Source: Haloarcula sp. CBA1129 (GTDB taxonomy: Archaea > Halobacteriota > Halobacteria > Halobacteriales > Haloarculaceae). Taken from it: a DNA stretch of 64,000 nucleotides. Below, one piece after another: positions 13,973 to 54,315 of the stretch (within the stretch, counting starts at the first letter, position 1; each line of letters begins with the position of its first letter). The notes beneath the pieces were generated by a model that saw nothing but the letters and a program-made list of their open reading frames with translations, ran no database searches and had not been told where the DNA came from. A program made the position numbers and the translations under genes. The stretch is taken from the NCBI RefSeq assembly GCF_008729015.1, contig NZ_RKSM01000001.1:3286001-3350000 (forward strand), written 5' to 3'.

Positions 13973-15325
13973 TCACTCTCCGGCTCGGTGAATCTCGCCG
14001 AGGTCACTCACTGTCGGTCCGTTGACGATGCGGACGGTCGTGCCGGACCGCGTCACCCGAAACGCATCGTTGAACTGCGAGTCCGCGGGGACGACGTAGA
14101 CGTTGGCGCGGGGCTGGCTGGCGCCGTGTTCCTCGGTCAGCGCCGCCCGATACGCCTGTTCGAATTGCTTCGCGTCTTCCTCGGTGTCCCAGCGGGTCTC
14201 CCAGACGTACCCGTAGCCGCCGGAGCCGTTGCGGTAGGGCACGACGAGGTCGCCGCCCCAGCCCGCCGAAACCTCGCTCTCGTAGCTGTAACGGTCGCCT
14301 TCCGTCTGGCCGTTGTGGTACATCGTCGCGTAAATCGACGTTTCGCCGACCGTGTCGCCGACTGGCTCGTGGTCGAAGCGGCTCCACTCGTCGGTCGAGC
14401 GGTCCGAAACGCTGACACTGGCCGGCTTTTCGGCCGGATACTTCTCCGGATGGAGCACCTGTTCAGTACTGTCCGGGAAGTCGTCGTGGAGCGCGTCGAC
14501 AGCGTCCCAGCCGCCATCGGACCGTACTTGATCGATGAACCGTGGCCCAGTGACGTAGGGCTGATAGAGGACGGTGAACAGGCCCTCGTTGTAACTCGGT
14601 TCTTGGCTGGTGTCTCCGCCGCCGCTTCCCCCGTTGGTGGTCCGGTCCGGGAGTGCAATGCAGCCCCAGTCATTCCCACAGCGGCGCTCGTAGAGGATGC
14701 GGACGTAGTTGGCCTCGCCTTCGGTGACGCCCTGCCGTGACAGTTGCATGTCCTGTGTCTTCGCGGAGCCGTTCAGGCCGAAGTGCTGGTCCTGTAGCGC
14801 GTGGACGAGTTCGTGTGAGAGCGTCCGCCGGTCTATCTGTGGCGTCTCCGTCGGACTGACGATGACGATCTCGTCCTTGCTCGGCGAGTAGTAGCCCTGC
14901 ACCGTCGTCGAGAGCGTGTCGTCTATCGACTCGCTGCTGCCCGAATCCTCGCCGATAAGCAGCAGTGCCTCCCACACCTGATCGTTCCAGGGGTCCTGTG
15001 GCGGACTGCCGCCGCCGCTGTCGTTGCCCCCCGAACGGTTCTGGTACTCCGCCCGAGAGATGACCGAAACCGGGACCGGCTCTTTGAACTCTAGGTCGCG
15101 GACCTGCTCGACGCGGGCCATCGCCCGGGCGACGACAGCCTCACGCTCGCTCTCGTTCAGTCCGTCGTCGGTCGTCACCGACACCGAATCGTCGTACCAG
15201 TAGCCGTTCTCGTAGCCGAGTGCGTCCTCCCCGGTCGGCGTCTCGGGGTGATCGCTGCCGCCGAAGGATGGGACCGTACAGCCCGCTAAGACGACCGCCA
15301 GCGCGACGAGGAGCTCCTTACGCAT
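13973..15325 (-). CDS. Hvo_1808 family surface lipoprotein (copy A)
   Basis: This 450-residue exported protein has a signal peptide with lipobox LAGC (Cys16), so it should be lipid-anchored on the cell surface. Motifs shared with the next gene include YENGYWY, a central LSHELVHALQDQHFGLNG and EGEANYVRILYERRCG. The HELVH element plus downstream acidic residues resemble a zinc metalloprotease site (HExxH), although the family is annotated only as surface protein. Its start overlaps the end of copy B by 8 nt, so the two form one transcript. A tandem gene duplication is evident from full-length similarity. Confidence 0.85.
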   Translation of the reverse strand: MRKELLVALAVVLAGCTVPSFGGSDHPETPTGEDALGYENGYWYDDSVSVTTDDGLNESEREAVVARAMARVEQVRDLEFKEPVPVSVISRAEYQNRSGGNDSGGGSPPQDPWNDQVWEALLLIGEDSGSSESIDDTLSTTVQGYYSPSKDEIVIVSPTETPQIDRRTLSHELVHALQDQHFGLNGSAKTQDMQLSRQGVTEGEANYVRILYERRCGNDWGCIALPDRTTNGGSGGGDTSQEPSYNEGLFTVLYQPYVTGPRFIDQVRSDGGWDAVDALHDDFPDSTEQVLHPEKYPAEKPASVSVSDRSTDEWSRFDHEPVGDTVGETSIYATMYHNGQTEGDRYSYESEVSAGWGGDLVVPYRNGSGGYGYVWETRWDTEEDAKQFEQAYRAALTEEHGASQPRANVYVVPADSQFNDAFRVTRSGTTVRIVNGPTVSDLGEIHRAGE

Positions 15326-16778
15326 CGTGCACCTCGTCGAGTTCCCCAGTCGTCGGTGCGTTCACGACGGTGACCGTGTCCCCGTTGACTCTGACGGCGA
15401 CAGCGTCAGTGTAGGGACTGCCTTCCTCGATGACCCAGTGGCCCTCTACGGTTTTGGTGCCGCCCCAGTGAGCGATAACCGCCTCCCAAGCGTCGGCGAA
15501 CTCGCGGGCGTCGGCCTCGCTTTCCCATGCCGTTTTCCAGACGTACGCCGTCTCGTCGCCGTCGTCGTAGACGTGCATCCGGCCGCCCTGCCAGCCGTCA
15601 GTCGCGGGCAGGTCGTAGTTGTACGGGTCGCTGCTATCCAGCGATCCGTCCTCGTAATTGATGACGTCTCCCGTCTGGACGACGCTCGACTCGTTGTAGT
15701 CATCCGCGATGGTGTACGCCATTGAACCGGCGATAGCGGAGGGACCGACGACAGCGTAGTCCGGTCGGTCGCGGTCAGCCGAGGGTCTGACTCGCTCCCA
15801 GTCCTCGCTCGACTGATCCGCAAGCGAGACTGACTCGGGTTCCCATTCGGGGTATCGCTCGGGGTACGTCACCTCGGCGGCCCCGTCTGGATAGTCGTCG
15901 TAGGCGTCATTGACGGCACTCCAGCCGCCGCGTTCTCGGAGATCCCCGATCAAACCGGGGCCGTCACTGTAGGGGAAATACTGCATGAAGTTGATGCCGA
16001 AGTGGCGGTCGTCGCCGCCACCGCCGCTCTGGGCGGGCCTGTCGATGCAGCGCCACGCCTCGCCACAGCGGTCGGTGTAGGTCTGGGTGACGGCGACGGC
16101 ATCGCCTTCGACCATTCCGTTTCGGCCTTGCACCTGATCCCGCGTCCGCGCGTCACTTTCGAGGCCGAAGTGCTGGTCCTGTAGCGCGTGGACGAGTTCG
16201 TGAGCCAGCGTCCCTCGGCTTATTGTCGGCGTCTCGGAGTCGCTGACGATGACGATCTCACCGCGCTGGCTGCTGTAGTAGCCCAGCACGCTCTCGCCGC
16301 GGTTGCTGTTCTGGACGGCGATGGAATCGCGGTCCTCGCCGATGAAAAACAGCGCCTCGAACTTCGCGTTATCGAACCGGCGCAGCGACTCGCCAGTTTC
16401 GCCCCCGCCCGCGTTGTCGCGATACTCCGCGCGGGAGACAACGGAGACCGGCACTGTCTCGTTGAACTCCAGACCGCGAATCCGCTCGACGCGAGCCATT
16501 GTCCGGGCGACGACGGCTTCGCGCTCTGTCTCGTTCAGTCCATCCTCGGTTGTTACCGATAGTGATTCGTTGTACCAGTAGCCGTTCTCGTAGCCCAGCC
16601 GGTCCGTCGCAGGCGCTGCCGGGGCAGAGTCGTTGCTTCCGTAGTCGGTCGCGGGCTCGCTCGGCGTCAGGTCGTCGCTGCTTGACGCCGTCTGGCTGGC
16701 CGGCGCTCCGGGGGCCTGACAGCCTGCCAGCAGCAAAACGACGACACAGAAACAGATGAGGGCGAAAGGGCGACGCAT
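15318..16778 (-). CDS. Hvo_1808 family surface lipoprotein (copy B)
   Basis: This 486-residue protein is the upstream member of the tandem pair. Its signal peptide ends in the lipobox LLAGC (Cys19) and is followed by a Ser/Ala/Pro/Asp-rich tether of about 45 residues. The body repeats the domain of copy A: GYENGYWYNESLSVTTEDGLNE, LAHELVHALQDQHFGLES and RCGEAWRC. HExxH is kept in both copies, so purifying selection on that site is likely. The tether is longer than in copy A, which would place the domain farther from the membrane. Proteolytic activity is inference. Confidence 0.85.
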   Translation of the reverse strand: MRRPFALICFCVVVLLLAGCQAPGAPASQTASSSDDLTPSEPATDYGSNDSAPAAPATDRLGYENGYWYNESLSVTTEDGLNETEREAVVARTMARVERIRGLEFNETVPVSVVSRAEYRDNAGGGETGESLRRFDNAKFEALFFIGEDRDSIAVQNSNRGESVLGYYSSQRGEIVIVSDSETPTISRGTLAHELVHALQDQHFGLESDARTRDQVQGRNGMVEGDAVAVTQTYTDRCGEAWRCIDRPAQSGGGGDDRHFGINFMQYFPYSDGPGLIGDLRERGGWSAVNDAYDDYPDGAAEVTYPERYPEWEPESVSLADQSSEDWERVRPSADRDRPDYAVVGPSAIAGSMAYTIADDYNESSVVQTGDVINYEDGSLDSSDPYNYDLPATDGWQGGRMHVYDDGDETAYVWKTAWESEADAREFADAWEAVIAHWGGTKTVEGHWVIEEGSPYTDAVAVRVNGDTVTVVNAPTTGELDEVHDA

Positions 16779-45098: not shown

Positions 45099-45123
45099 CG
45101 ACTGAATTTATGATTTGATAACG

Positions 45124-45459
45124 ATGGATTCAGGGGAGATTCTTCAGACGCTTGGCAATAAATACAGTGCCGAAATCCTCGACGCGACGGACGAACCGGT
45201 CTCCGCACAGGAGCTCAGCGACGAACTCGGAATCCCCATCGCGACGTGTTACCGACGGATCGATGAACTGACCGAGCATGACCTACTGGAGCTACACGAC
45301 AATATCCTCTCTGACGACCGCCGTCGTATCAAGGTGTACCGGCGCAATGTCGACGAGGTCCGGGTCGACTTCGACGACGAACTGACTGTGCACATCGAAG
45401 AGCGGTCGGAAGTGACCAACAAACTCGACGAGGCGTGGCGGACCCTATCTGAGCGATAG
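45124..45459 (+). CDS. Winged-helix transcriptional regulator
   Basis: This 111-residue protein contains a winged-helix domain: GEILQTLGNKYSAEILDATDEPVSAQELSDELGIPIATCYRRIDELTEHDLLELHDNILSDDRRRIKVYRR. The wing (DRRRIKVYR) is basic while the rest is acidic, typical of haloarchaeal ArsR/MarR-type regulators. No metal-binding cysteines are present. The start codon ATG at 45124 fits the TATA box 29 nt upstream; an upstream TTG would add three residues. The next gene (DUF7521-like) often accompanies such regulators. A perfect 16-bp palindrome lies directly before that gene and is a candidate binding site. Confidence 0.8.
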   Translation: MDSGEILQTLGNKYSAEILDATDEPVSAQELSDELGIPIATCYRRIDELTEHDLLELHDNILSDDRRRIKVYRRNVDEVRVDFDDELTVHIEERSEVTNKLDEAWRTLSER

Positions 45460-45525: not shown

Positions 45526-45541
45526 AGCACTGTACAGTGCT
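45526..45541. promoter_or_regulatory. 16-bp perfect palindrome AGCACTGTACAGTGCT (candidate operator)
   Basis: This palindrome overlaps the expected transcription start of the small membrane protein gene (45543) and follows a TATA-like TTTAATAA (45506-45513). Dyads of this size at the start site are typical of archaeal repressor sites. The preceding gene encodes a winged-helix protein, so feedback control by that protein is the simplest hypothesis. Confidence 0.6.
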
Positions 45542-45542
45542 A

Positions 45543-45818
45543 ATGATAGAACTTCTCTATGCCATATCGACGTTGGTGTTCGTCGTTGCCGGACTGACAA
45601 TGGTCGGGATGGCCATACGGGCGTACATCCAGACCTCCCGACAGGCAATGCTCCACCTTTCAGTAGGGTTCTCGTTGGTGATCGCGGGGGCTGCCGCCAC
45701 GATGATCAGTGCATTCGTGAATAACTTTCAGGGTGTGCGGTCGCTTTTGCTCGTCAACAGCGGCCTGACGACGTTCGGGTTTCTGTTTGTGATGTACAGT
45801 CTCATCGCGTACGAGTGA
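45543..45818 (+). CDS. Small membrane protein next to winged-helix regulator (DUF7521-like)
   Basis: This 91-residue protein has three hydrophobic segments (about residues 5-27, 39-57 and 68-88). The pattern ELLYAISTLVFVVAGLTMVGMAIRAYIQTSRQAMLHLSVGFSLVIAGAA is one I associate with haloarchaeal membrane proteins paired with winged-helix regulators. A GTG six bases upstream (45537) is a possible alternative start at the transcription start site. The arrangement suggests a membrane signal feeding the adjacent regulator, which would be new for a motility locus; this is inference. Confidence 0.65.
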   Translation: MIELLYAISTLVFVVAGLTMVGMAIRAYIQTSRQAMLHLSVGFSLVIAGAAATMISAFVNNFQGVRSLLLVNSGLTTFGFLFVMYSLIAYE

Positions 45819-46042: not shown

Positions 46043-47467
46043 ATGTTCGAACGTATTACAAATCCAGAAGACCGAGGCCAAGTGGGTATCGGGACCCTCA
46101 TCGTGTTCATCGCGATGGTGCTCGTCGCCGCAATCGCGGCAGGCGTCCTGATTAACACTGCTGGCTTCCTGCAGAGTTCAGCTGAACAGACCGGCCAAGA
46201 AAGTAGCGACCAAGTGACCAACCAGATTCAGGTAGCGTCGAAGATTGGGTCTGTTTCTGGAAGCGGTCCAACAGACACCATCGTATTCGATAGCTCAGGG
46301 GCAAGCTCAGACTCCCACGGTGAGTTCGCAATCGACGACGGGTCTCAAATGGATGTCCTCGTCTCTGAAGACGGTGATGGCAGCATTGTTCTTACTGCAG
46401 CCAGCAGTAACGAGATTGCTGTCGAAGATGGTGACACCCTTACTTTCACGAAGGCAAGCGCCTCCTCAGTGGAAGTGCAGAACGATGCAACCGGTGCATC
46501 GATCACTGTTGACACCAGCGAAGACCTCTCGATAGATGCTTCGAACGCAGCTACCAGCGCTGATAGCATCCGTCTCCAGCGTACCTATGAGGACCCGATT
46601 AATGGAGAGGTCACTCTACAAACGTTGAAGCTAACGGACAGCGACGCAACTCCCGCTGACCAGACTCTCCCGATAGAGGTTAGCGAAAATACCGAGCAGT
46701 ACATCCCACTTTCCAGTAGTTCATCGACCGATCAACTGCTGGTCAGTGATGGTGAGGTGCTGACTGCTACGTCGAACACTGTTGACGCTGCGGAACTTGC
46801 GCCCAGCGGATCCGGTGGCGCTCTCGATGTCGACGCTGGCGACGAAATCCGCTTCGATGTCGTCTCCAACAATGAAGTCGAGGTAATTAACGTCGAATCG
46901 GGGGCATCATTCACCTTCAACCCGTTCGAAAACGAGCTCTCTGTCAGCAGCGATACCATCGAGTTCGAGAACGGAGATGGTGACACTATCACCGTCTCAG
47001 GCGGAGGGGCATTCTATGGTCTCGAACCTGACGACGTTGACAGTGGTATCACCATCACTCAAGGAACCGCTGCGGACTCCGCACTCCTCGTGAACGCGGA
47101 GTACAACAGCGGCGGCGGCGGCGTCTCTGAAATCAGCATCATCGCGATCAAAGGCTCCGGTGCGGACCAGATCAACCTCGAACAGACGACCATCACCACG
47201 ATCGGCCCCAGCGGCACGAACACGCTGACCTACGGCGGCACCAGCGCCTCCCAAGGTGAGACGTTCGGCGTCCAGGCCGTTCAGGACGAGGATGAGTCCC
47301 TGCCGGTGATGACCGACGCTGACCGCTTCCGCATCATCGTGGATCCCGGCACGCTCGAAACCGGCGCGACGATGACGCTTGAAGTGACGACAGAGTCCGG
47401 CGCGACCACGGAAATCCGCGTTAGCGTGCCCAACACGCTATCGGGCGAAACCGCAGTGCAGGTCTAA
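46043..47467 (+). CDS. Major archaellin (archaeal flagellin)
   Basis: This 474-residue filament protein has a 12-residue class III leader ending in RG, cleaved before [32 protein letters not shown], the conserved archaellin helix that forms the filament core. The remaining 420 residues are acidic, Ser/Thr-rich and beta-structured, longer than the 200-residue minimal archaellins. The C-terminal end reads [19 protein letters not shown], similar to the short archaellin at 48026. No N-x-S/T sequon occurs in the whole protein. The central section is less GC-rich than the C-terminal third. It lies 225 bp after the membrane protein gene. The ATG at 46043 matches the leader length; an upstream extension in this frame is not leader-like. 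Confidence 0.93.
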
Positions 47468-48025: not shown

Positions 48026-48622
48026 TCAGACGGCGACCGTCGTCTCCCCGTCGAGCGTTGACGGGACCGATACCCGAACCGTCGTCGTCGCGCCGTCGGG
48101 CGACAGCAACCGTATCGTGCCGCTCTCGCTGGGCTGGAGTTCTACCCCCGTCAGCGCTGCGAGGTCGATACGCAGCGCCGCCCGGTCGCTTTCGTCGTTC
48201 AGAATCCCCCGTGAGAGCGAGTCGTCGTCGTCCGAGAGCGTAGTAAGTGAGATCTCGGTCGAGGAGCCCACCGCCGCGTCGGCCCCGCTTCCGATTGTCG
48301 TTCCGACGACGACATCGTTGAGGTCCATGTTTCCGCCCCCTTCCGCTCGCTTCACGACGAGTGTCACCGCCTCGACGGTGTTGCCGGTAGTGTTGACGTG
48401 ACCCGTCGTACCGATGACTTCGGCCCGTGCGACGACTCGGTCAGCGCTCTTGTCGCTGGCCGTGGCCGCGTCGGACTGGAACCCGCCGACCACCTCGAAC
48501 AACACGCCAGCTGTCGCCGCGGCGATCAAAAGCGCCGCGATCAGGAGGATTATCGACCCGACAGAGCTCTGCGCCCGCCGTTCGCTGGCCGTTCGCTCCC
48601 CTCGCTGATTCGGTGCGCTCAC
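48026..48622 (-). CDS. Short archaellin-like protein (minor filament subunit)
   Basis: This 198-residue protein has a class III leader ending in ERRA before QSSVGSIILLIAALLIAAATAGVLFEVVGGF, the archaellin core helix. Its C-terminus (TTTVRVSVPSTLDGETTVAV) is clearly related to that of the 474-residue archaellin. It carries one N-x-T sequon (NTT in HVNTTGNT). I place the start at the GTG at 48622, which gives a 17-residue leader; upstream ATGs on this strand would make an over-long leader. It faces the major archaellin tail to tail and is divergent from the coiled-linker protein gene. It could be a minor, capping or hook subunit. Confidence 0.75.
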   Translation of the reverse strand: MSAPNQRGERTASERRAQSSVGSIILLIAALLIAAATAGVLFEVVGGFQSDAATASDKSADRVVARAEVIGTTGHVNTTGNTVEAVTLVVKRAEGGGNMDLNDVVVGTTIGSGADAAVGSSTEISLTTLSDDDDSLSRGILNDESDRAALRIDLAALTGVELQPSESGTIRLLSPDGATTTVRVSVPSTLDGETTVAV

Positions 48623-48680
48623 AGTGTATCGATATCCACGACCAGCCAAAACCGTGTCGGCTACGCTGAGCAGCGACGGA

Positions 48681-48688
48681 ATTATATC
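48681..48688 (+). promoter_or_regulatory. TATA box of the linker-protein gene
   Basis: ATTATATC lies 27 nt before the ATG at 48711, with no Shine-Dalgarno, so a leaderless start is likely. Confidence 0.6.
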
Positions 48689-48710
48689 ACTCCCTCTCTC
48701 ATATATCGCC

Positions 48711-49280
48711 ATGGCCTCGGGGTCAGACGAACCGAATCCGGAAGACGGCAAGATACTCTCCCCGGAGGAGCTTGACATTGCGGACGACGAACACGTCACA
48801 GAAATAGACGAAGGCCGCTATGTCGTCTCCTCAGACGTACGAACCGACGATTCCTACGGCAATCAGGTTTCGTCCGACCCTGCACCGGAACCGGAACCCG
48901 AACCGGCTCCGGAACCCGACACACCCGAGTTTACTGACGCGAACGTTCACGAGTGGCTCGCCGAGCAGATGTCGGAATCAAACAGCCGCTACGGGTTCGA
49001 CGTGACCGCAAAGTTCGACGGCAATGTCGATCAACAACAGGTCGTGTCCAACGATATCATCACTGCGTTTGAGAGTTTCATGCTCTGGTACGGGCGGCAG
49101 ATGGATGGGTCAACGTCAGTGGAAAACGTGCTCGGTATCTTGCTCTCTGAGTCGAATGTCCCGGTAAAACATCCGCCCGAAAGCTTCAAGCGGATGGTAC
49201 AGTCGACCGGCCTCTCGCCTGACGACAGTATTGCTGATCTTGTTGCGGCTATCGAAGCGCGAGACGGCGCAACCTTCTAG
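48711..49280 (+). CDS. Motility-locus protein with PEPEP linker (DUF7500-like)
   Basis: This 189-residue protein has an N-terminal SPEELDIADDEHVTEIDEGRYVVSS segment, a proline-glutamate linker (PEPEPEPAPEP, about residues 60-70) and a helical C-terminal domain (FTDANVHEWLAEQMSESNSRYGFDVTAKFDGNVDQQQV and FESFMLWYGRQMDGSTSVENVLGILL). The linker is nearly identical in style to the one in ArlCE. It precedes cheY and is divergent from the short archaellin. It is conserved in haloarchaeal motility islands as far as I recall, but its role is not established; a switch or motor-tether component is possible. Confidence 0.7.
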   Translation: MASGSDEPNPEDGKILSPEELDIADDEHVTEIDEGRYVVSSDVRTDDSYGNQVSSDPAPEPEPEPAPEPDTPEFTDANVHEWLAEQMSESNSRYGFDVTAKFDGNVDQQQVVSNDIITAFESFMLWYGRQMDGSTSVENVLGILLSESNVPVKHPPESFKRMVQSTGLSPDDSIADLVAAIEARDGATF

Positions 49281-51769: not shown

Positions 51770-53440
51770 ATGAGTAGTCTCGCTCTCGTGCCACTGGCCC
51801 CAGCCGTCTCACCGGAACTGGTTGGACTGGTGCCCGCCCTCTTTGTCCTCCTGACCGGCGGGCTGGTTGGTATGAGCATCAAGAATATGTTCGACTCGAT
51901 CCTGTCGGACGACGAGAGCGGGGACGCGAATGAGGGCGGCGGTAGCGGCGAGATGGCCGACGGCGGCGGCCTGATGGCTGATGACGGCGGTGGCGACGAT
52001 CTTGGCGGTGGCGGCGGTGACGACCTCGGCGGTCTCGGTGGCCTTGACGACGGCGGCGACGACATGGGTGGATTCGGTGACGACGAGTTCGGCGACATGG
52101 AAGACGCCAGCGGGCCCGATACCGACGAACTGGAACACCGTCTCGACGAACTGGAAAACGAAGTCGGCAGCCTCTCCTCGACGGTCAACACGGTTCGGAC
52201 GGAAAACGAGAGTATCTCCGAGTCCGTCGAAGAAACTGAGGAGAACGTCCGGAAACTCCTCGACATCTACGAGATGGTCACCCGTGGCGTCAACCCCTTC
52301 GCCGACGATGTCGACGGCGGCATGGGCGGCATGGGCGAGGGCGGCGGCTCCTTTGGCCTGTTCGACGATGATGGGAGCGACGACACCGAGAAGGATATCG
52401 ACGACGATGTCGCCAACGCCGATGCAGAAGGGTTCTTCGACGAAGATCTGACGGAGGACACTGGCGGTGACATGTCGATGGACGACGGCGGCGTCGACGA
52501 TATGTTTCCCGACGACGGTGGCGACGACACGGGCGGCTTTGAGGACGACGGCGGGTCGTTCGACGAGGAGTTCGACGACTTCGACGACACGGAGGACGAC
52601 ATGAGCATGGACGATGGGATGAGCATGGACGACGGGGAGAGTATGGACGAGGACAGCGACGACGGCGACGGCGGCAAATCGTTCGCAGAGCTCAAAGACG
52701 AGTACGAGTCCGGCGACGCCGAGTGGGCCGAGGGCGAGGAACCCGAGGATGACGCGAGCGACGACGATGACCTGCTTGGCGACGACGATGACGACTTGCT
52801 GGCTGACGAGGACGACGACCTGTTAAGCGAGGATGATTCGGACGGCGATGCAGGCGGACTGGAAGACGACGACCTCTTCGACGAAGTCATTGAGGACGAC
52901 GGGCTCGATGACGCCGAGGCGGCTACGGAGGCTGAGCCAGAGCCCGAACCAGAACCGGAGCCGGAACCGGACCCAGTCGCGGAGCCAGAGCCCGAACCGG
53001 AACCCGAACCAGACCCCGAACCGACTGCCACACAGACTGACACGGCGGCTACCGGGAGCACCGACGAGGCAGCGGTAAACGACGGCTCGGATGCGGACGA
53101 CGACGGGAAGCCGTACCTGTCGACGATGCCGGAGGGGTTCGCTGCGGACCTCATCATCGTTGAGTGGCTGGAGTTTCTGGTCCAACACTCGGGCTATCGC
53201 GAGACGGCCCGCGCTATCGACTACTACGAGACTATCGACTGGATCGATGAGTCGGTCGCGGACCAGCTCAAGGAGTACCTCCGCGGCTTCAACGACGTGA
53301 ACGACACCGGGGATGGGCTGTCTATCGACCACCACACAGAGAGCTTGCACTACATCTCGCAACTCGACAGTGACAGCGGCGCTGACGCCGTTGCGCTCTC
53401 GAAACTGGTGGGGGGTGGTTCCGATGGGATTCAGCGTTAG
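51770..53440 (+). CDS. arlCE: Archaellum switch-complex protein ArlCE (FlaC/E fusion)
   Basis: This 556-residue protein has an N-terminal hydrophobic patch (LVPALFVLLTGGLVGMSI), a FlaC-type coiled-coil region (about residues 120-185; LEHRLDELENEVGSLSSTVNTVRTENESISESVEETEENVRKLLDIYEMV), a long Asp/Glu/Gly-rich region (about 190-445, with repeats like MSMDDGMSMDDG and EPEPEPEPEP) and a C-terminal FlaD/E domain (PYLSTMPEGFAADLIIVEWLEFLVQHSGYRETARAIDYYETIDWIDE). The module receives CheY-P via CheF and rings the motor. It overlaps arlF by 17 nt. The acidic region makes it longer than most homologues. Confidence 0.92.
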   Translation: MSSLALVPLAPAVSPELVGLVPALFVLLTGGLVGMSIKNMFDSILSDDESGDANEGGGSGEMADGGGLMADDGGGDDLGGGGGDDLGGLGGLDDGGDDMGGFGDDEFGDMEDASGPDTDELEHRLDELENEVGSLSSTVNTVRTENESISESVEETEENVRKLLDIYEMVTRGVNPFADDVDGGMGGMGEGGGSFGLFDDDGSDDTEKDIDDDVANADAEGFFDEDLTEDTGGDMSMDDGGVDDMFPDDGGDDTGGFEDDGGSFDEEFDDFDDTEDDMSMDDGMSMDDGESMDEDSDDGDGGKSFAELKDEYESGDAEWAEGEEPEDDASDDDDLLGDDDDDLLADEDDDLLSEDDSDGDAGGLEDDDLFDEVIEDDGLDDAEAATEAEPEPEPEPEPEPDPVAEPEPEPEPEPDPEPTATQTDTAATGSTDEAAVNDGSDADDDGKPYLSTMPEGFAADLIIVEWLEFLVQHSGYRETARAIDYYETIDWIDESVADQLKEYLRGFNDVNDTGDGLSIDHHTESLHYISQLDSDSGADAVALSKLVGGGSDGIQR

Positions 53441-53861
53441 CGGCTCGGCGGCCATCATTTTCGTGGCCGCGTTCATCGGCTTCGGGATGTTCTACTCCGC
53501 GACCGCAAACAGCTTTGAGCGCGTCACTGACGCCCGCGAGGACCAGCGCGACCAACTCCTCGACCAGCAGAATACCGAGATCTCGCTCGTGTCGGCGACG
53601 TGGAACAGCAGCGGGAACGAAAACCTCGTTGTGACCGTCGACAACACCGGCTCGGAGACGCTGTCGGTCGAAGAGACCGACCTGCTGGTCGACAACGACT
53701 ACCGTACGGGCTACGAGACGTCCGTCGGTACTGACGACGCGACGGATATCTGGGCGTCACAGGAGCAATTAGAGATTACCGTCTCTTCGCTCAGCAGCCA
53801 GCCCAACCGGGTGAAAGTCGTCACCGAGAACGGCGTTGCTGACACGATGGTGGTGAGCTAA
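53424..53861 (+). CDS. arlF: Archaellum stator protein ArlF (FlaF)
   Basis: This 145-residue protein has an N-terminal membrane helix (SAAIIFVAAFIGFGMFYSATANSF) resembling archaellin helices, then a beta-sandwich domain (LVSATWNSSGNENLVVTVDNTGSETLSVEETDLLVDN). ArlF and ArlG form the S-layer-bound stator part of the motor. It starts inside the arlCE end (17-nt overlap) and is followed by arlG after 1 nt. Confidence 0.92.
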   Translation: MGFSVSGSAAIIFVAAFIGFGMFYSATANSFERVTDAREDQRDQLLDQQNTEISLVSATWNSSGNENLVVTVDNTGSETLSVEETDLLVDNDYRTGYETSVGTDDATDIWASQEQLEITVSSLSSQPNRVKVVTENGVADTMVVS

Positions 53862-53862
53862 C

Positions 53863-54315
53863 ATGGCGAGCGTCTCCGTCTCACACCTGATCCTATTCAT
53901 CGCGTCGATGGCTATCGCCGCGAGCGTGGCCGGCGTTTTTACGACCAGTATCGGCGAGCTGAGCAACGCTGTCTCGGAACAAGGGCTGGATGTAAGCAGT
54001 GACGTTCGGACCGACGTGGAGATAATCTCCGACAGCGGCAGCAACAATATCTATGACGACAGCAGTGAGACAACCACTATTCACGTCAAAAACACTGGTT
54101 CAGAGACGTTGGCCCCGGTTCCCGGACAAATAGATGTGTTCGTCGATGGGGCCTTCGCCAGTGATTACGCGGTGGCACTGGAGCCCAACGGCGGTAACAG
54201 CTGGCGGCCCGGCGAGGTCGTTCGCATCGACATCAACGGGAACCTCAACGGCGGTGACCACCGCATCAAACTCATCGTCAACGGCGACGAGGAGGTGTTT
54301 GAGTTCAACACATGA
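53863..54315 (+). CDS. arlG: Archaellum protein ArlG (FlaG)
   Basis: This 150-residue protein has an N-terminal helix ([31 protein letters not shown]) and a beta-sandwich tail ([28 protein letters not shown]). It is structurally parallel to ArlF and binds it; together they anchor the motor to the S-layer. The protein overlaps arlH by 4 nt. No leader cleavage site is apparent. Confidence 0.92.

Follow-up and report, generated by a model that had tools for sequence, protein, structure and literature searches.

Archaella as a whole have been described as highly N-glycosylated (PMC12488501). The archaellins of Halobacterium salinarum (structures 9eq7, 9esm, and 9etu; PMC6591318, PMC11239922) are about 190 residues long and carry three N-glycosylation sites. 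Those in the core, N80 (VNLTVR) and N93 (GADNINLS/T), are both glycosylated (PMC6591318, PMC11239922), and the N-glycans hold the filaments apart and prevent bundling (PMC11239922). In Haloferax volcanii, the archaella formed by ArlA1 and ArlA2 were reported to be stable only with the N-glycans added by AglB (Tripepi 2012, as cited in PMC8241124 and PMC7349177). A precedent for an archaellum without the usual AglB is that of Aeropyrum pernix (7txi), for which the STT3/AglB gene was reported missing (PMC2952790) and the filament has been solved. In Haloarcula marismortui, FlaB and FlaA2 each build functional archaella alone (PMC6528647).

The window analysed here is a stretch of 64,000 nucleotides from Haloarcula sp. 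CBA1129. It carries the gene of a long archaellin of the flaB type (P0001; 46043..47467, plus strand), which encodes 474 residues and has a single, terminal stop. The protein belongs to the Pfam family PF01917 (Arch_flagellin), with an E-value of 4.5e-28 and a score of 99.1 bits, the cut-off being 29.5. Its first 12 residues (46043..46078, plus strand) are a class III signal peptide (PibD), delimited from the sequence and its alignment with 9eq7, 9v95, and 9v96, and a hydrophobic helix follows, an arrangement conserved in nearly all the long homologues; on the basis of the conserved archaellin motif, cleavage would be expected before QVGIGTL. The export and processing route is shared with ArlA1 and ArlA2, and the N-terminal helix and the core are as in the H. 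salinarum archaellins. Residues 1-72 align with 9eq7 (a 72-residue match), covering the N-terminal core helix region (residues 13-72; 46079..46258, plus strand; helix at residues 16-53 in the predicted model), and the globular core (residues 361-474; 47123..47464, plus strand) matches the 9eq7 core at residues 364-472. Unlike the H. salinarum proteins, P0001 has a beta-rich outer insert of roughly 290 residues between helix and core, unaligned to 9eq7 (residues ~73-360; 46259..47122, plus strand; boundaries approximate), which was recognised from this gap, from a repeat, and from a beta model of low-to-medium confidence. The predicted model of the whole protein (medium confidence, mean pLDDT 63) consists of one long helix, the rest being strands, and its best Foldseek matches were the archaellins 9eq7, 7ofq, and 5ya6 (E 2.8e-6 to 3e-5), as expected of an archaellin core fold. 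The repeat is a duplication inside the outer region, between 46421-46525 and 46829-46933 (residues 127-161 and 263-297, 40% identical, E 1e-4).

P0001 is 64% identical to the chromosomal FlaB of H. marismortui (WP_011224081) over all 474 residues, and 56% identical to its FlaA2 (WP_011222137; plasmid pNG100) in an end-to-end alignment. H. marismortui also shares the gene order, in which genes for an HTH protein and a DUF7521 protein are followed by flaB and then, on the opposite strand, by flaB2. Judged from sequence and gene order, P0001 is the orthologue of the chromosomal FlaB, a member of the long FlaB type. FlaB and FlaA2 resemble P0001 in their inserted outer region and in having zero sequons. 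Two deposited structures probably represent these filaments: the chain of 9v95 (454 aa) is as long as FlaB, that of 9v96/9xtb (463 aa) is as long as FlaA2, and all align end to end with P0001, which suggests that 9v95 is H. marismortui FlaB and 9v96/9xtb are FlaA2, the entries being titled just 'Flagellin'. H. marismortui has FlaA2, whereas the search of the 4.05 Mb genome studied here gave two archaellin genes, P0001 and a short one at 48026-48799, plus FlaF/FlaG-like Pfam matches, and no FlaA2 copy, so that P0001 is its sole long archaellin. The first-pass annotation had named P0001 the major archaellin, an interpretation in agreement with these two genes and with the building of the H. marismortui filament from FlaB and FlaA2. 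Relatives of P0001 were found by the genome search, and none by scans of the genome-contig and viral-contig sets.

A regular-expression scan of P0001 found 20 Asn, zero N-X-S/T, and zero N-X-C, confirming the absence of sequons noticed at first pass. Shuffled sequences of the same composition contain a mean of 4.5 sequons, and the probability of obtaining none is 0.005-0.006. With 0 of them, the protein lacks the canonical sites of the N-glycosylated haloarchaeal archaellins. In the alignment with 9eq7, Halobacterium N80 corresponds to S365 of P0001, and the N93 site (INLS/T) corresponds to N378-L-E (residues 378-380; 47174..47182, plus strand), with Glu in place of Ser/Thr at +2. Read from this alignment, both Halobacterium core sites are lost in P0001 by substitution, the second retaining its Asn. 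An error in the reading frame hiding a sequon, a caveat raised at first pass, is unlikely and was rejected, since P0001 aligns end to end with FlaB, FlaA2, 9v95, and 9v96.

The first-pass annotation had treated this protein as an exception and had pointed to the FlaA2 and FlaB paralogues for comparison. The same absence of sequons is found there, and the exception turns out to be the rule: the pattern is genus-wide, and archaella built from sequon-free subunits are known to be functional in Haloarcula. The four long Haloarcula archaellins (P0001, H. marismortui FlaB and FlaA2, and the FlaB of a third species) have 0 sequons against 21.0 expected by shuffling, with 15 occurrences of the reversed motif S/T-x-N. 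Among 41 short Haloarcula archaellins we counted 28 sequons against 85.3 expected by shuffling; 27/41 have none, and some retain 4-5 (in genomes G023 and G028). We also computed an offset profile on representatives sharing <70% identity. In the long Haloarcula set, Asn with Ser/Thr at +2 occurs 0 times against 20 expected, the other offsets are at 0.68-1.20 of expectation, and the Asp control is normal (36 vs 38 with Ser/Thr at +2). In the short Haloarcula set other offsets stray too (Gln at +2 occurs 5 times vs 21 expected), and thus the offset profile does not by itself settle the matter for the short proteins.

To allow for shared ancestry, a homology-preserving test was added. Each alignment column was shuffled among rows, which keeps conserved positions and treats the rows as exchangeable, so that it is not a full phylogenetic test. 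The +2 counts were 0 vs 3.8 for the long Haloarcula archaellins (1.75% of shuffles as low), 11 vs 25.1 for the long archaellins of other genera (0/400 shuffles as low), and 27 vs 43.0 for the short Haloarcula archaellins (0/400). In all three sets the depletion is found at +2 only, offsets -2, +1, and +3 being normal, and the control set of 99 short archaellins of other haloarchaea showed no sequon depletion (252 vs 236). The four long Haloarcula sequences are related to one another, and the homology-aware P for them alone is only 0.0175. When 68 archaellins were placed on a quick tree, 13 changes were needed to account for the distribution of the sequon-free state, at least 9 of them forced by well-supported branches. 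The absence of sequons in P0001 is therefore ordinary within its genus, and is part of a broader pattern of sequon avoidance, of which our literature search found no description.

Outside the genus, in genome G176 and in G120, a member of the same family (loci L061 and L115), all three archaellins found are without sequons, which suggests independent losses.

The loss of the glycosylation enzyme was considered as a cause and rejected. AglB (TIGR04154) was matched in 32/32 Haloarcula genomes, in all but one of them (31) with a score over the cut-off, the remaining genome being 71% complete, and the copy of the AglB-bearing genome studied here is full length with the WWDYG motif. A. pernix is the opposite case: there the enzyme is missing, whereas here it is in place and it is the sites that are lacking. 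The idea that exported proteins avoid sequons in general was rejected as well. Three S-layer-like PGF-CTERM proteins of the same genome are enriched (13 vs 6.3, 17 vs 9.3, and 11 vs 4.7 expected; these counts are partial, the reading frames being cut at the locus ends), and the summed count for six further exported proteins from the window is at expectation (15 sequons vs ~15.2). With AglB present and the S-layer-like proteins rich in sequons, other surface proteins look like AglB targets.

Elsewhere in the window, two adjacent, related, secreted protease-like proteins (13973-15325 and 15318-16778) are rich in sequons, with 5 each vs 2.2 expected.

The reading that we favour, with a probability of roughly 0.6, is that P0001 is a FlaB-type subunit of an archaellum without canonical N-glycans, in which sequons were lost and are kept out by selection, and in which the protein surface replaces the glycans. 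The best reading of the data is counter-selection against N-glycosylation on the filament, rather than missing machinery. The sequons of the archaellin core would have been lost in the Haloarcula lineage, and new ones would then have been excluded by selection because AglB, still active in the cell, would glycosylate them. If N-glycans were merely unneeded, sequons would be expected at the chance rate; they are instead rarer than that, precisely at the offset read by AglB, which suggests that it is harmful for these subunits to acquire adventitious glycans. Since FlaB and FlaA2 are each functional alone, canonical sequons are not required in Haloarcula. The solubility and spacing that N-glycans provide in Halobacterium would probably come from the surface, which is highly acidic, and from the large outer beta insert. 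An acidic surface had been proposed at first pass, and it is plausible in view of the composition of the mature protein (16.2% Asp+Glu, 2.2% Lys+Arg, pI ~4). The outer region cannot be the full explanation, because the short Haloarcula archaellins, which have no such insert, are depleted too.

Some published observations speak against this reading. AglB uses non-canonical sites in Haloferax, in PilA6 and HVO_2160 (PMC8241124), and non-canonical AglB use was also reported for a Halobacterium NAS site changed at Ser (Zeitler 1998, as cited in PMC2952790). In addition, modifications of the H. marismortui proteins have been mentioned, and some glycosylation of FlaB was assumed from gel bands, one of which was taken as FlaB with possibly incomplete glycosylation (PMC6528647). 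The short Haloarcula archaellins that retain 4-5 sequons and the relatedness of the four long sequences also weigh against it. Extending counter-selection to Haloarcula and several other haloarchaeal lineages, we would give even odds that selection excludes N-sites from archaellins while AglB glycosylates the rest of the surface; filament N-glycosylation would then be a switchable trait, harmful in some designs.

It is possible, if unlikely, that O-glycans on the Ser/Thr-rich outer region of P0001 replace the N-glycans. Ser and Thr make up 23.8% of the mature protein (computed mass of the unmodified chain ~47,074 Da), and there are reports of archaellum O-glycosylation in M. hungatei and in S. 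acidocaldarius, with a likely further case in a Chloroflexota archaellum (PMC12488501). The anomalous migration of the H. marismortui archaellins on gels, put down to low pI and modifications, would also fit; however, the low pI accounts for it by itself, and O-glycans alone leave the depletion of sequons below chance unexplained.

Chance or relaxed constraint, by which filament N-glycosylation became unimportant, sequons were then lost, and none were regained, appears a little less probable still. The single-protein P is modest (0.005), the long Haloarcula sequences have a shared ancestry, and the loss of sequons recurs on the tree, all of which this explanation would accommodate. Relaxation predicts sequons at the chance level, however, not below it, and it does not account for column shuffles in which three sets are depleted at +2 only and the control set is not.

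We consider it improbable that AglB glycans sit instead at non-canonical Asn (e.g., N-x-A or N-x-L), where sequon counts would miss them. Such sites exist in Haloferax and Halobacterium, and P0001 has N-T-L twice, N-A-A, and N-T-A. Nevertheless, in Haloferax they amount to 3 confident sites in 3 proteins vs 102 N-glycosites in all (PMC8241124), and swapping canonical for poor sites would not give a depletion specific to Ser/Thr at +2.

The suggestion, made at first pass, that filament glycosylation is carried by the short archaellin FlaB2 is very improbable: its NTT site is indeed present, and is kept in three Haloarcula species (those of genomes G000 and G010, and H. marismortui), but a minor subunit with a single conserved site could not provide a coat for the filament, and in H. 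marismortui, where the filament is reported to consist of two other archaellins (PMC6528647), FlaB2 is of unassigned function, which makes it an unlikely carrier of the glycans.

The counter-selection that we favour, and the sequon-avoiding archaellins of Haloarcula on which it is based, run counter to the view of archaella as always N-glycosylated. A genus with AglB and with archaellins that avoid sequons, two of them with deposited structures, is a natural test of the role of the glycans, be it spacing, stability, or something replaceable by the protein surface.

As regards the other archaellum genes of the window, named from homology and gene order, FlaF and FlaG (53313..54315, plus strand) start the archaellum motor operon, which continues with flaH (54312), flaI (55088), and flaJ (56764). 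The divergent short archaellin of the FlaB2 type (48026..48799, minus strand; start codon uncertain) has the one conserved NTT sequon discussed above and an unusual processing site, RRA/QSSVGS. Just upstream of flaB lie an HTH_20 protein of 114 aa (45115-45459), identical in H. marismortui (L070:12000-12344), and a DUF7521 membrane protein (45537-45818); this couple is a candidate regulator pair of archaellin expression.
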